Origin: Thermoplasmata archaeon
Lineage (GTDB): Archaea; Thermoplasmatota; Thermoplasmata; SG8-5
Assembly: GCA_030655715.1 (NCBI GenBank)
Contig: JAUSPR010000243.1
Span: forward strand, 1-5,801
Length of the DNA: 5,801 nucleotides
Reading direction: 5' to 3'
The stretch's first letter is position 1. The number at the start of each line of letters is the position of its first letter. Below are positions 1 through 5,801 of the stretch, piece after piece. Under the pieces are notes generated by a model, which worked only from the letters and a program-made list of their open reading frames with translations, did not search any database and was not told where the DNA came from. The translations under genes and the position numbers were made by a program.

Positions 1-130
1 ATCCAAAGTCCTGATGGACATTTGGAACTATGTCGAGGTGTGGTTTTAGGCAGTATTGGAACGTGCGTTCCAAACGTTTTTAGCCGGTATCGGAACTCTG
101 GTTCCGAGTTCTGATTGAAAATGTTCCGAA
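1..130. repeat. Hairpin repeat array I (left edge)
   Basis: Three imperfect or perfect palindromes lie in series. CCAAAGTCC (3-11) pairs with GGAC-A-TTTGG (16-25) around a TGAT loop. TTGGAACG (56-63) pairs perfectly with CGTTCCAA (66-73). TCGGAAC (90-96) pairs perfectly with GTTCCGA (101-107). The second and third are each preceded by a linker of the form TTTTAnnCnGTAT (45-55 and 78-90). The sequence that follows (108-141) is almost the same as that after the last hairpin of array III (3349-3383). The array is cut by the window edge, so its full length is unknown. Its function is unknown. It lies 3' of a minus-strand coding remnant, as the other arrays lie 3' of module copies. Confidence 0.8.
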
Positions 131-141
131 CTGCATTCAAC

Positions 142-1385: not shown

Positions 1386-1490
1386 TTTTATCTGGCATCC
1401 AAACCCTTCGGGATTTGGTTTTATTCGGTATTGGAACACTTGTTCCAAACGTTTTTAATCGGTATCCAAAGTCCTGATGGATTTGGAACG
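1386..1490. repeat. Hairpin repeat array II, 33-34 bp period
   Basis: Three tandem units each begin with TTTTA-n2-3-GG(C/T)AT, starting near 1386, 1419 and 1453, and each continues into a hairpin. These are CCAAACCC (1399-1406) with GGGATTTGG (1410-1418); a perfect TTGGAACA (1431-1438) with TGTTCCAA (1441-1448); and CCAAAGTCC (1466-1474) with GGATTTGG (1479-1486). The period is 33-34 bp. The arms differ between units but stay complementary, so the fold rather than the exact sequence appears to be kept. The array ends a few bases before the 3' end of module copy 1. No open reading frame in 1246-1500 looks convincing. Confidence 0.85.
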
Positions 1491-1502
1491 ACGGGGGTGC
1501 AT

Positions 1503-1750
1503 TCAACACAACAACTCTTTCTTCTTCCTGACAAGCTTCCGGATGGCAGTTTCCTTGTCTTCCTTGTCGGCCCAATCACCTCGGCCCCGAACCAGGACAG
1601 CGTGCCGTCCTCTTCCTCGCGGACCTCGTCCGGCCGCACTTTGATGACATTGTCCACGTCCGCCTGGAGCGACGTGGTCTTGGTGACCCCGATGACAATG
1701 CCCGCGTAGGTGCAGGTATATCTCCATCTGGTGCCGCCCTTGGGGGGTGT
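1503..1750 (-). pseudogene. Module copy 1 (frameshifted)
   Basis: Read on the minus strand from 1750, this encodes TPPKGGTRWRYTCTYAG, then IVIGVTKTTSLQADVDNVIK and VRPDEVREEEDGTLSWFGAEVI. The continuation homologous to copies 2 and 3 (ADKEDKETAIRKLVRKKKE) is in another frame, because four bases are missing near 1574-1578 compared with copy 2. The shifted-back frame ends at TGA 1505-1503. The open frame itself reads through to 1421 with unnatural sequence. A GTG at 1867 inside the ATPase 3' end could open the frame, giving 148 codons, but the 39 residues before the module look like read-through of spacer DNA. It is most likely an untranslated relic or recombination substrate. Confidence 0.6.
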
Positions 1751-1956
1751 GATGGGGGCTCGAAACAGAGGAAGATTGTGTGAAACGCGGTATGGGAGAG
1801 GACGGTTTGTAAGCAATAATTTTGTGGAGAAAACGGAACTGACTACTTTGCCTGTTCCAGAAGCCACTTCCAGAGCGGGACGAATCTCACTTTATTTCCT
1901 TCCAAGCGTTCCTCGCTTTCGTAATCCCACGTGATTACCAGCAGGTTCTTGCATCT
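1705..1956. repeat. Long direct repeat, left copy (ATPase 3' end + spacer + module 5' end)
   Basis: Compared base by base with 5174-5425, this 252-bp tract has only three differences (positions 1727, 1821, 1917). It spans the last 114 nt of the ATPase gene, the 92-nt spacer and the first ~46 nt of the module. Similarity drops sharply at 1957 on one side and 1704 on the other. The spacer is as well kept as the coding parts, which points to recent duplication or gene conversion rather than protein-level selection. Confidence 0.9.
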
Positions 1957-3114
1957 GAGAGTTTTCGAGCCAGTGTGAAGAGAAGTGAGCTCTCTTGCCG
2001 GTATTTCCAGTCGGTCACTGGCATAAGTCACTTGAACGAGTTGCTGGACTTCCGAACCGTTCTTGAGGATGAAATCAACTTCTCTCTGTTGGTGATCCTT
2101 CCAGTAATAGACTTCCAAATCATGCATGAGTGCCTTTTTCCGCTGAAGCTCAATGGCCACAATGTTTTCCATTGCCCTGCCGATGCCCTCGGTGAATCTG
2201 AATCCGACAGTCCTGGCGAGTCCAATGTCAACACAGTACACCTTTTTGGGCGCAAGTACTTGCCGTTTGAAACTAAAATCGAACCTGTCCAGCTTGAAAA
2301 AAAGATATGACTGTTCCAAGTATGCGAACCAATTCGACACGGTAGAAACATGACCTACCTCGAATTGTTCAGCCAATCTGGAATATGACGTTTCTCCACA
2401 GATATTGGTCGCTAGATGTTTTGCCAGGTGTCTCAGAGTTTCGGCCTTGCGCATCTTATGGCGCTGGAGAATATCCCTTGAAATGATGTCATTATAGATT
2501 CCACGCAGGATATCGCGTCCGAATGCCTGGACCTCAGGAAATCCTCCGGTTTCCATGTATTTGTCAAGGAGGTTAATGACCTGCGCGTTTTCGAATGTGG
2601 TCAACGCTTCTCCTTCGGGATGATCCTTGCTCACCGCGAACTCCCTGAATGAATAAGGGAACATGGTAATGTCAATATGTCTGCCCGTGAGGCTCGTCGC
2701 CATTTCGCCCGAAAGCAGCTTTGAGTTGCTCCCAGTGACTATAACTCTCTTTGTTCTCCTGAGCCGGTTTGCAAAAAGCTCCCATCCAGGCACTTTCTGA
2801 ATTTCGTCCAGAATGATAAAATCTATCTTCCCATGAAGGTCGTAAAGTGCCTGCAGCAGGTCATCCAGATCCTTTGTTTTGACATCGAACAGGCGTTCAT
2901 CGTCAAAATTTATGTATCCGAAATTGTATCCTTTCGCCAGCATGTGAGAGAAGATCGATTTTCCGCAGCGCCTCACACCCAGGACCGCGAGCACGTTGGG
3001 AGCCGAAAGGGCACTCTTTCCGGTTGGAAGTGCCTCCCTCGGGACAAGCCTGGACCTGGACTCGATATCCTCCAGTTCCTCCAGTTGCTCAGCCACCACC
3101 CGTTTGAAATTCAT
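1843..3114 (-). CDS. AAA-family ATPase with DUF4143-type C-terminus
   Basis: A complete 423-residue protein of the large archaeal and bacterial family of stand-alone ATPases. The Walker A is GVRRCGKS (46-53). The Walker B is DFIILDEIQKVPGW (98-111) with the D103-E104 pair. A sensor region TGSNSKLLSGEMATSLTGR (127-145) follows, then the family motif GGFPE (190-194). A helical, probably winged-helix segment spans ~225-275. The C-terminal DUF4143 part has a nuclease-like REVDFILKNG (344-353) with VQVTYA where related proteins carry a D...ExK nuclease pattern, so it is probably not a canonical nuclease. These genes are usually single, horizontally spread and of unknown cellular role. The ATG at 3114 is chosen because an A/T box lies 24-25 nt upstream. 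The 3' third is highly similar to the second ATPase at 5312-5801. Confidence 0.92.
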   Translation of the reverse strand: MNFKRVVAEQLEELEDIESRSRLVPREALPTGKSALSAPNVLAVLGVRRCGKSIFSHMLAKGYNFGYINFDDERLFDVKTKDLDDLLQALYDLHGKIDFIILDEIQKVPGWELFANRLRRTKRVIVTGSNSKLLSGEMATSLTGRHIDITMFPYSFREFAVSKDHPEGEALTTFENAQVINLLDKYMETGGFPEVQAFGRDILRGIYNDIISRDILQRHKMRKAETLRHLAKHLATNICGETSYSRLAEQFEVGHVSTVSNWFAYLEQSYLFFKLDRFDFSFKRQVLAPKKVYCVDIGLARTVGFRFTEGIGRAMENIVAIELQRKKALMHDLEVYYWKDHQQREVDFILKNGSEVQQLVQVTYASDRLEIPARELTSLHTGSKTLRCKNLLVITWDYESEERLEGNKVRFVPLWKWLLEQAK

Positions 3115-3187: not shown

Positions 3188-3375
3188 GCTTTATTCGGCA
3201 TTGGAACATTCGTTCCAAACGGTTTTAGTCGGCATCCAATTTTATCTCTATCCAAAGTCCTTTATTCGGCATCCAAACCCTGAGGGGATTTGGAACTACG
3301 TGCAATCTGAGGACATTTGGTTTTATCGGTATCGGAACTTGGTTCCGAGTTCTGATTGAAAATGTCCCGAACTGC
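3188..3375. repeat. Hairpin repeat array III
   Basis: This is the longest array, with at least three intact hairpins and several half units. TTGGAAC (3201-3207) pairs with GTTCCAA (3212-3218). CCAAACCC (3273-3280) pairs with GGGATTTGG (3285-3293). TCGGAAC (3332-3338) pairs perfectly with GTTCCGA (3342-3348). Each hairpin is preceded by TTTA-TCGG(C/T)AT, and the same linker also precedes a half unit at 3222-3239. A right-half unit (GGACATTTGG, 3311-3320) has lost its partner. The array runs from the ATPase 1 promoter side to the 3' end of module copy 2. The last ~55 bp closely match array I (90-140). Confidence 0.85.
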
Positions 3376-3386
3376 ATTCAACACAA

Positions 3387-3797
3387 CTATTCTTTCCTGG
3401 TCTTGACAAGCTTCCGTATCTTCGCCTCGGAGTCCTCTTTGTCGGCCAGCTCGATGACTGTCGCTTCAGACCATGTAAGCGTTCCATCGGCCTCCTCGCG
3501 TATTTCGTCCGGCCGCACTTTGATGACGGTGCCGACGTCCACCTGGAGGTCGGTGGTCTTGGTGACTCCGATGACATTGCCCGCGTAGGTGCAGGTATAT
3601 CTCCACCTGGTGCCGCCCTTGGGAGGCGTGAACTGCTTTGCCTCGCTGACAGTGACATTGATGGTCTTTTTGCGGCGCTTCAGCGGCAGAACCAGAATTA
3701 TCGGGACGATGATGAACGGGAGAAGGCTGGTGGGTGTGTCGGACTCGTCCGCGGGAAACGTTGGCGGATGACCGGGAATGGAAAGAACGGAGCGCAC
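3387..3797 (-). CDS. Module copy 2: transmembrane segment plus C-terminal module, probably 5'-truncated
   Basis: An open frame of 136 residues from a GTG at 3797, with an in-frame TAG directly before it. Residues 1-22 are Pro/Thr/Asp-rich. SLLPFIIVPIILVLPL (24-39) is a membrane segment followed by KRRKK, which by the positive-inside rule puts the N-terminus outside and the C-terminus in the cytoplasm. Residues 57-136 are the module. A Thr/Pro-rich stretch before a terminal membrane anchor is typical of the stalk end of archaeal surface proteins. This is therefore probably the last exposed piece of a larger protein whose 5' part was lost near 3797, where the divergent MNT promoter now lies. 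The module, with VGTVIKVRP and DGTLTW, resembles a small beta-barrel such as an OB-fold; this is a weak inference. Expression is doubtful. Confidence 0.45.
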   Translation of the reverse strand: MRSVLSIPGHPPTFPADESDTPTSLLPFIIVPIILVLPLKRRKKTINVTVSEAKQFTPPKGGTRWRYTCTYAGNVIGVTKTTDLQVDVGTVIKVRPDEIREEADGTLTWSEATVIELADKEDSEAKIRKLVKTRKE

Positions 3798-3816: not shown

Positions 3817-3840
3817 CGCGAAAACGCCTATATGCCATCG

Positions 3841-4137
3841 ATGAAAGCAAGCGGTCTCGATTCAATCAAATTGACTCTTAAGAATCGCAAGCCTATGCTG
3901 AAACGCAAGTACAAGGTCAGCAGAATAGGCATATTCGGGTCGTTCGCCCGGGGCGAGCAAAAGCGCGCCAGCGATGTGGATGTGCTCGTGGAACTGTCAG
4001 AACCCATCGGCCTGGATATAATTGCGCTGAAAGATTACTTGGAGAAAGCGCTGGGGCGCGAGGTCGATCTGGTCACCGTCAAGGCCCTGAAAGCGAAGAT
4101 GCGTGATGGGATATTGGCGGAGGTCGTTTACGTTTGA
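3841..4137 (+). CDS. MNT-type minimal nucleotidyltransferase (MntA-like antitoxin)
   Basis: 98 residues from the ATG at 3841 (101 from 3832). The open frame begins upstream at 3778, but its first 18 codons overlap the promoter and are not convincing. The protein has the standard MNT layout: helix KRKYKVSRIGIFG, signature G33-S34-FARGEQKRAS-D45-V-D47, and a third acidic residue D76 in REVDLVT. All three metal-binding acids are present, so it should be active. MntA-type proteins AMP-ylate a tyrosine next to the active site of the HepT RNase toxin and so neutralise it. Here the gene ends VVYV-stop, the usual end for this family, but no intact HepT follows. It is transcribed divergently from module copy 2. 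Confidence 0.88.
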   Translation: MKASGLDSIKLTLKNRKPMLKRKYKVSRIGIFGSFARGEQKRASDVDVLVELSEPIGLDIIALKDYLEKALGREVDLVTVKALKAKMRDGILAEVVYV

Positions 4138-4870: not shown

Positions 4871-4976
4871 CATAGCGAATCTCCGATACCAGGCTGCACG
4901 TATGTTCTGAAATTACAACGCGAAGGATGAATTGAATGCGCCGTTTTCAACATGCTTAAAGTTGCGTTCAACACAA

Positions 4977-5219
4977 CTATTCTTTCCTGGTCTTGACAAG
5001 CTTCCGTATCTTCGCCTCGGAGTCCTCCTCCTCGGCCTTCTCGATCACCTCGGCCCCGAACCAGGACAGCGAGCCGTCGGGTTCCTCGCTGACTTCGATG
5101 GGCCTGACCTTTATCACCGTGCCGATATCTGCCTGCAAGGACGTGCTCTGCGTGATGCCCAGAACCTGGCCCCCGTAGGTGCAGGTATATCTCCACCTGG
5201 TGCCGCCCTTGGGGGGTGT
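4977..5219 (-). pseudogene. Module copy 3 (intact frame, no normal start)
   Basis: Encodes the full ~80-residue module in one frame, from TPPKGGTRWRYTCTYGG through VGITQSTSLQADIGTVIKVRP-type sequence to DSEAKIRKLVKTRKE and a TAG at 4979-4977. Upstream it is joined in frame to spacer DNA and to a GTG at 5336 inside the ATPase 2 gene, which would give 119 residues. No TATA box or SD supports that start, and the first 39 residues look non-coding. The transmembrane part seen in copy 2 is absent. The last ~60 bases are nearly identical to those of copy 2 (3372-3434), but the hairpin array that follows copies 1 and 2 is missing here; similarity ends at about 4961. Probably a relic, possibly translated through coupling to the ATPase. 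Confidence 0.5.
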
Positions 5220-5425
5220 GATGGGGGCTCGAAACAGAGGAAGATTGTGTGAAACGCGGTATGGGAGAGGACGGTTTGTAAGCAATAATGTTGTGGAGAA
5301 AACGGAACTGACTACTTTGCCTGTTCCAGAAGCCACTTCCAGAGCGGGACGAATCTCACTTTATTTCCTTCCAAGCGTTCCTCGCCTTCGTAATCCCACG
5401 TGATTACCAGCAGGTTCTTGCATCT
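5174..5425. repeat. Long direct repeat, right copy
   Basis: Partner of 1705-1956, offset by 3469 bp, with three mismatches in 252 bp. It covers the 3' end of ATPase 2, the spacer and the start of module copy 3. The two copies are in the same orientation, so recombination between them would delete or duplicate the 3.5 kb in between, which holds ATPase 1, module 2, MNT and the Fic-like gene. Confidence 0.9.
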
Positions 5426-5801
5426 AAGGGCTTTCGAAGCTATGCCGAGGGAAGTGAGTTCTCTTTCTGGTACTTCCAGCCGGTCGCTCGCATATGTCAC
5501 CTGAACGAGTTGTTGGACCTCCGGGCCGTTCTTGAGGATGAAATCGACTTCCCTCTGCTGATGGTTCTTCCAGTAGTAGACCTCAAGGTCGAAAACCATT
5601 GCCTTGCGGCGCAATAGATCCCCGCCCACTACGGTTTCCATTTTCCGTCCCCAATCGCTTGAACTCCTAAATCCAACGGCTTCCTGGAGGCCGGGATCGA
5701 TGCAATATATTTTTTTCGGTGAAAGGTACTGGTTCCTGAGTTTAAAATCAAACCTGTCCAGCTTGAATATAAGATATGCCTGTTCCAGATAGGACACCCA
5801 A
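5312..5801 (-). CDS. Second AAA/DUF4143 ATPase, 3' part only
   Basis: Runs off the right edge; the visible part corresponds to residues 262-423 of the first ATPase. The GTG near 5797 is an internal Val codon (W-V-S-Y-L-E-Q), not a start. It lacks the Walker motifs only because they lie outside the window. It keeps REVDFILKNG and VQVTYA and the same WKWLLEQAK end. Counted by eye, it matches ATPase 1 at 37 of 67 residues over positions 265-331 and at 83 of 92 over 332-423, so similarity rises steeply towards the 3' end. ATPase 1 has ENIVAIEL where this copy has ETVVGGDL, so the two upstream parts are separate paralogues. Confidence 0.88.
   Translation of the reverse strand, partial: WVSYLEQAYLIFKLDRFDFKLRNQYLSPKKIYCIDPGLQEAVGFRSSSDWGRKMETVVGGDLLRRKAMVFDLEVYYWKNHQQREVDFILKNGPEVQQLVQVTYASDRLEVPERELTSLGIASKALRCKNLLVITWDYEGEERLEGNKVRFVPLWKWLLEQAK

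Follow-up and report, generated by a model that had tools for sequence, protein, structure and literature searches.

Nested arrays of a dispersed hairpin repeat in a Thermoplasmata archaeon, possibly mobilized in trans by an IS200/IS605-type transposase

Three hairpin arrays lie on a stretch of 5,801 nucleotides from a Thermoplasmata archaeon (referred to as the window). Our best explanation, to which we give an even chance, is that they derive from a dispersed hairpin repeat which is likely mobile and non-autonomous, would be moved in trans by a Y1 transposase as single-stranded DNA, and would land in T-rich hairpin loops. Many of the arrays are nested, not tandem. The mobile reading is supported by the copy number, by a covarying stem with a fixed bulge, by host loops that occur both filled and free of units, by nested hairpin halves, and by positions that mostly differ in a sister genome. 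The window is contig C153 of the source draft genome (G000), which comprises 1.73 Mb in 287 contigs and is estimated to be 73% complete.

A unit is built from a T-rich tract, the tag CGGYAT and a hairpin with a single bulged purine, and has a length of about 35-45 nt. The CCAAA-type unit reads TTTWWY-CGGYAT-CCAAA-GTCC-loop-GGAC-A-TTTGG, usually followed by AAC. Each unit is one hairpin and does not have the two near-terminal palindromes by which IS200/IS605 transposons and PATEs are defined. The letters confirm the three arrays, and hairpins of three types, at the places given in the preliminary description; they are annotated as follows.

1-30, plus strand: CCAAA-type unit truncated by the contig start, CCAAAGTCC TGAT GGACATTTGG (covariance-model match to model positions 13-42; letters, CCAAA..TTTGG from base 3)
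56-73, plus strand: TTGGAAC/GTTCCAA hairpin (letters)
77-111, plus strand: TCGGAAC/GTTCCGA hairpin preceded by TTTTTAGC-CGGTAT, stem 90-107 (letters; weak model match, E 0.0017)
133-141, plus strand: GCATTCAAC, the 3' arm of host stem-loop II, the 5' arm of which would fall outside the contig (letters)
1385-1423, plus strand: CCAAA-type unit, arms 1399-1403 and 1414-1418, inner stem CCC/GGG, bulge A1413 (model match; letters)
1431-1448, plus strand: TTGGAAC/GTTCCAA hairpin (letters)
1452-1491, plus strand: CCAAA-type unit, arms 1466-1470 and 1482-1486 (model match, 55.1 bits)
1499-1507, plus strand: GCATTCAAC, the 3' arm of host stem-loop II, with no matching 5' arm upstream by eye (letters)
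3201-3218, plus strand: TTGGAAC/GTTCCAA hairpin (letters)
3230-3239, plus strand: orphan 5' half-unit CGGCATCCAA (letters)
3252-3320, plus strand: split hairpin, 5' arm CCAAAGTCC at 3252-3260 and 3' arm GGACATTTGG at 3311-3320, enclosing a whole unit (letters; parsed as a nested pair)
3259-3298, plus strand: inner CCAAA-type unit of the split hairpin, arms 3273-3277 and 3289-3293 (model match, 50.3 bits)
3319-3352, plus strand: TCGGAAC/GTTCCGA hairpin preceded by TTTTAT-CGGTAT, stem 3332-3348 (weak model match, E 0.00087; letters)
3374-3382, plus strand: GCATTCAAC, the 3' arm of host stem-loop II, with no matching 5' arm upstream by eye (letters)
4932-4972, plus strand: look-alike of stem-loop II without a unit, TTGAATGC, a 24-nt loop and GCGTTCAAC, at the 3' end of the third copy of a neighbouring gene (letters; gene copies aligned)

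All three window arrays are followed by GCATTCAAC, which is the 3' arm of another stem-loop repeat (II); this is the only arm of that host that they show. The arrays are separated by genes. A small gene that has no Pfam match is present three times on the minus strand (1575-1874, 3454-3753 and 5044-5343), and two of its copies are adjoined by AAA_14/DUF4143 ATPase genes (1843-3114 and 5312-5800, minus strand), one of which is truncated by the contig end. These copies represent a segmental duplication. Also on the minus strand, a nucleotidyltransferase gene (Polbeta/NTP_transf_2; 278-919) overlaps an ORF of 112 aa (907-1245) for which Pfam gave no match, an arrangement which we take to resemble MNT/HEPN pairs, and a further small nucleotidyltransferase is encoded at 3838-4137.

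The unit occurs in many copies. With at most one mismatch, CGGYATCCAAAGTCC has 75 occurrences in the source genome, while the reversed-pattern control has none. A covariance model of 42 positions was built from 43 units; these are 43 of 65 pattern rows, after the removal of hairpins of other types, of units that were split or misread, and of those cut by a contig end. This model has 130 matches in the source genome at E <=0.001 (the scoring covered 150 of the 1433 candidates from a first look; the E-values are rough, having been calibrated in a short run). A stricter joint search of 61 genomes found matches in four of them: 105 in the source genome, 27 in G001 and 14 in G002, which belong to the same genus, and one in G005 from the same family. 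There was no match in G003, also of this genus, or in 56 other genomes, so that the match in G005 is the only one among the 57 genomes beyond the genus. The exact core pattern is present in eight stretches from public genomes, seven from UBA147 (Methanomassiliicoccales archaeon) and one from Euryarchaeota archaeon S2_100, a collection from which the source genome may have been excluded. The preliminary description had looked to further copies with compensatory changes in the source and related genomes as the mark of a structured element, and both were found. Several contigs end inside a unit (C152:7793-7831, C252:4359-4397 and C182:1-37 of G000, as well as the window at 1-30), and it is thus probable that the repeats break the assembly and that copies are undercounted.

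The later analyses used 150 units, namely the 123 strongest of 139 matches in the source genome and all 27 from G001. The source-genome sequence used consisted of the window and 60 of the 76 contigs with matches, taken whole except for one that was used only to base 20,000. Two units, L109:237-278 and L125:346-385, are located 0 and 9 bases behind the 3' ends of tRNA genes (tRNA-His, tRNA-Phe), in the T tract. In G002, one copy (L062) has its tag directly behind a TAG stop codon and lacks the T tract. A viral origin was considered and set aside, as the viral contigs searched do not contain the exact core pattern, a comparison that would miss more diverged relatives; a 121-base piece also had no match in phage records.

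Of the 361 cells in the alignment of 43 units, 98.9% are paired, and when pairing partners are shifted by one column this drops to 62.8% or 48.5%. It had been claimed that arm bases change while pairing is kept, and this is borne out: four of nine pairs have changed on both sides, and there are 19 double-change cells compared to 4.0 in shuffled alignments. Outer arms could be tabulated for 119 of the 150 hairpins, the other 31 not being parsed: CCAAA/TTTGG (98), CCGAA/TTCGG (19), CGAAA/TTTCG (1) and CCGAA/TTTGG (1, with a G-U pair). As the parser requires a paired outer arm, with G-U allowed, mismatches cannot appear in this count. The inner arms include GTCC/GGAC, CTCC/GGAG, CCC/GGG, GCC/GGC and ACCCT/AGGGT. 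Among 112 hairpins with an inner stem of at least 2 pairs, 110 have a bulge of exactly one base on the 3' side at the same stem position (105 A, 5 G).

Conservation has a sharp left edge and ends six bases left of the tag, which is the one boundary available for a comparison with MITEs of DDE transposons and their terminal inverted repeats and target duplication. Positions -6, -5 and -4 from the tag are T in 82, 94 and 98% of 100 distinct copies, and the tag CGGYAT itself is conserved to 94% (C), 88% (G), 89% (G) and 100% for each of Y, A and T in 100 copies which had been chosen by a loose tag pattern. The copies, the covariation and the retained bulge support selection on a folded strand, as had been proposed. 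Binding of a dimeric protein to double-stranded DNA, which had also been proposed, agrees less with the asymmetry of the bulge.

The units had been described as tandem, and this view has to be given up. Tandem Repeats Finder lists no array in these regions, the spacing is irregular and hairpin halves are nested, which also argues against a satellite. At window positions 3252-3320, the arms CCAAAGTCC and GGACATTTGG flank a complete unit. The same arrangement is found with mixed arm types: a CCAAA/TTTGG hairpin encloses a CCGAA/TTCGG unit at L096, and the reverse is seen at L129. Nesting is three levels deep at L116 and L117. When 139 clusters were evaluated, 43 of 51 orphan 5' halves preceded a complete hairpin and 22 of 27 orphan 3' halves followed one; the numbers of 5' and 3' halves per cluster are correlated (Spearman 0.49, the clusters not all being independent). 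The arm types of nested pairs agree in 25 of 35 cases, which is within expectation (permutation p 0.38). An unnested exception is L046 from G002, where three hairpins stand side by side. A CRISPR is also considered unlikely, as the stretches between the hairpins recur between loci (reading by eye).

Units are also found outside their own hairpins, namely in another dispersed repeat, where they fill the loops of stem-loop I (GGCGAATGC..GCATTCACC) and stem-loop II (GTCGAATGC..GCATTCAAC). For stem-loop II there are 16 left arms, 15 of them closed, with seven empty loops (all of 23 nt) and eight filled ones. All 15 left arms of stem-loop I are closed, and ten loops are empty (23-25 nt) while five are filled. 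Thus, 13 of 30 closed stem-loops of this IS200-related repeat carry units and 17 are empty, but the 13 filled loops are not independent events because some host copies are kin. The tag pattern used in the script flagged seven (II) and three (I) of the filled loops; L121, L126 and L138, with other tag letters, were added by eye. Filled loops have 45-52 nt, except for two nested arrays with 184 and 270 nt. The empty II loops at L083, L126 (two), L134, L141, L152 and L155 all have exactly 23 nt and widely different letters, so that the loop is constrained in length and not in sequence; the two at L126 contain a small hairpin of their own. Filled loops lack a recognisable remnant of the empty-loop letters, and replacement of the loop is therefore as possible as insertion.

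There are further hosts. The second is a repeat of about 215 bp (L140:16013-16228, L142:16401-16727, L153), with 58 BLAST pieces against the G000 sequence used, which by its end hairpins is a PATE-like family. These hairpins are the same as those beside a Y1 gene of G002 (L153), and arrays are found in its central palindrome CCATGCACC (L098 was folded). A third host, CCCCGCC..GGGCGGGG, was found both with and without a unit; CCCCGYC-type arms are closed in 16 of 33 cases, which is not above expectation (12.2). Named host contexts with both arms surround 20 of 99 clusters in G000 and 8 of 24 in G001, and left arms only were found for another 16 and 2, compared to 1.4% of random non-coding positions, a comparison that is partly circular because the arms were defined from unit flanks. 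A general tendency towards outer stems was not detected: exact stems around 111 copies are not in excess (at least 8 bases, 21 vs 14.8; at least 10 bases, 1 vs 2.05). The duplex energy of the flanks is -17.1 vs -16.4 kcal/mol, with 9 of 113 copies ranking best (4.3 expected), a null or weak result, and for wider flanks 6 of 111 copies rank best, again with 4.3 expected.

Unit positions differ between relatives. At 18 unit sites of G000 for which a gene flank could be aligned in G001, G001 has a unit within reach at only three, two of them reversed; this comparison favours presence, since the sequence from G001 had been selected around units of that genome. Conversely, nine unit clusters of G001 could be compared with 400 bases or more from G000, and at two of them G000 also has a unit. 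Site orthology was assumed from the longest alignment; one row was set aside because it aligned to a different repeat (L084), as were two sites for which less than 400 bases of G001 sequence were available. The median identity between the two genomes is 72% over 33 aligned stretches of more than 400 bp. Copies of a 30-nt core, CGGTATCCAAAGTCCTGCGGGACATTTGGA, without a single difference nevertheless occur once in G000, four times in G001 and once in G002. Four alignments were tried for a base-exact empty site between species, and none was clean.

Y1 transposase genes were found in three of the four genomes of the genus (Y1_Tnp matches: one in G001, two each in G002 and G003). Two of the proteins, one from G001 and one from G002, pass the cut-off for IS200/IS605 (115.3 and 106.4 vs 55 bits) and are below that for REP transposases (28.2 and 29.3 vs 80 bits). 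In G001, the IS200-type tnpA (L125:1321-1737) has a stem-loop with II-like arms that begins at its stop codon, and stem-loop II adjoins the Y1 genes of G003. The G001 gene is on a contig of 3,580 bases together with two units and is the sole Y1 gene within about 1 kb of units. One Y1 gene thus ends in a stem-loop of the host kind.

According to the preferred explanation, the unit would fold and move as single-stranded DNA, and an IS200/IS605-type (Y1) transposase would act in trans, transposition and not some other copying process being what spreads the unit. The T-rich tract would be the target side. Hairpin loops might be chosen as targets because they are single-stranded, and as the unit's own loops could also serve as landing sites, arrays would grow by nesting. 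The idea of Y1 movement in trans derives from known systems: recognition of REPs involves their 5' tag and, in one group, a bulge in the stem, and IS200/IS605 enzymes act on folded single strands (PMC6006769, PMC8266576, PMC3733652). Tag and bulge are both present in the unit. Several points argue against a Y1 helper. No Y1_Tnp match was obtained in the source genome, a draft, which is the richest in units; G003 has its two Y1 matches and no units; and the nearness of gene and units comes from one contig. Against the explanation as a whole, the tag is not GT[AG]G, the two scored transposases are below the REP cut-off, empty-loop remnants and a base-exact empty site were not found, the arm types of nested pairs agree no more often than expected, and the outer-stem tests gave null or weak results.

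A bolder form of this explanation, which we put forward tentatively and hold to be somewhat less probable than not, is that of an archaeal REP-like parasite, a hairpin of less than 50 nt that would borrow an IS200-type transposase and land in the single-stranded loops of hairpins, both those of its own kind and those of elements related to the helper, thereby building stem-loops in the manner of Russian dolls. Bacterial REPs are likewise high-copy intergenic hairpins of 20-40 bp with a conserved 5' tag at their foot and, in one group, a bulge (PMC6006769, PMC8266576, PMC3733652). The units differ from these in their tag, which is CGGYAT and neither GT[AG]G nor CGTC, in that a REP-type transposase was not found, and in being nested in loops. 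They are small intergenic hairpins of high copy number, as REPs are, without the REP tag or transposase. For Archaea, PMC6006769 mentions only Y1 proteins of the IS200-type subclass.

Next in probability, though unlikely, is a mobile repeat of the SMR-A kind that enters the palindromes of IS605-type elements by means of an enzyme unrelated to Y1 transposases. SMR-A elements from Haloquadratum walsbyi are described as short and numerous archaeal elements that carry no transposase; they are inserted in palindromes close to the termini of PATEs and IS605-type transposons, do not duplicate their target, and are mobilised in a manner that is called enigmatic (PMC3119063). Units are likewise found in palindromes of IS200-related repeats, and the lack of a Y1 match in the draft source genome would fit. 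However, SMR-A elements have a length of about 110 bp, inverted terminal repeats and an identity that commonly exceeds 95% (PMC3119063), whereas the units are far shorter, have diverged with compensation and show the order of tag, hairpin and bulge. Self-nesting also sets the units apart, as only one of 114 SMR-A events is an insertion into another SMR-A element (PMC3119063). Thus, the units resemble SMR-A elements in being inserted into IS605-type palindromes and not in size, terminal repeats or near-identity. With their insertion into palindromes of PATEs and of IS605-type elements, SMR-A repeats are an archaeal precedent for such targeting; the units differ from them in size, tag, bulge, compensated divergence and self-nesting.

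Less probable still is a swapping of loops between hairpins at replication, by template switching or gene conversion without any transposase, which would make the units by-products of hairpin-prone DNA. This would account for the filled loops without a clear remnant of the empty loop, for the mixed hairpin at L102, where the outer 3' arm directly follows the inner 5' part as if exchanged, and for larger composites that are common to loci L080, L083, L092 and L098. It does not explain the sharp left edge of the unit and its constant tag and bulge, nor the copies in unrelated flanks, such as those that adjoin the 3' end of a tRNA gene or follow a stop codon.

We attach very little probability to a regulatory RNA or DNA element that is kept in place (a terminator, an RNA-stability hairpin or a protein-binding site): the hairpin does covary, only five of 123 units are within ORFs of at least 150 aa (52 overlap some ORF of at least 80 aa, mostly short ones) and the two copies behind tRNA genes would suit such a role, but neighbouring genes show no clear orientation bias (with the unit's strand as reference, ++ 18, -- 22, 22 convergent, 14 divergent and 42 at a contig edge), and G001 has a unit at only three of the 18 aligned sites and G003 has none. 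A terminator in particular is not favoured, both for this lack of orientation and because an intrinsic terminator has its T tract behind the hairpin while that of the unit precedes it.

The statement that no named family has this form stands, although relatives in kind exist among REPs, SMR-A elements and PATEs: Rfam has no match in the window at gathering score, and neither this repeat family nor such nested hairpins were found reported for Methanomassiliicoccales in the mainly open-access literature searched. With PATEs, the likeness concerns the host stem-loops, which relate to the 3' end of tnpA as PATEs do to the ends of IS605-type transposons (PMC3119063); the unit itself is a passenger in these stem-loops and has other letters than PATEs or IS200/IS605 ends. 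Short mobile hairpins in non-coding DNA are also known as GC clusters from yeast mitochondria (PMC4478555) and as hairpin elements from sponge mitochondria (PMC2800124). For GC42 of yeast, substitutions are concentrated in loops, and a merging of clusters is discussed (PMC4478555). Both groups differ from the units, being mitochondrial, with RNA-mediated spread suspected and no IS200 link (PMC4478555, PMC2800124).

REPs and their processing enzymes have been described in bacteria. A tagged and bulged family from an archaeal genus, whose empty and filled loops can be read from draft genomes, would make the insertion of single-stranded DNA into hairpin loops directly testable. It would also suggest how nested palindromic non-coding DNA arises.
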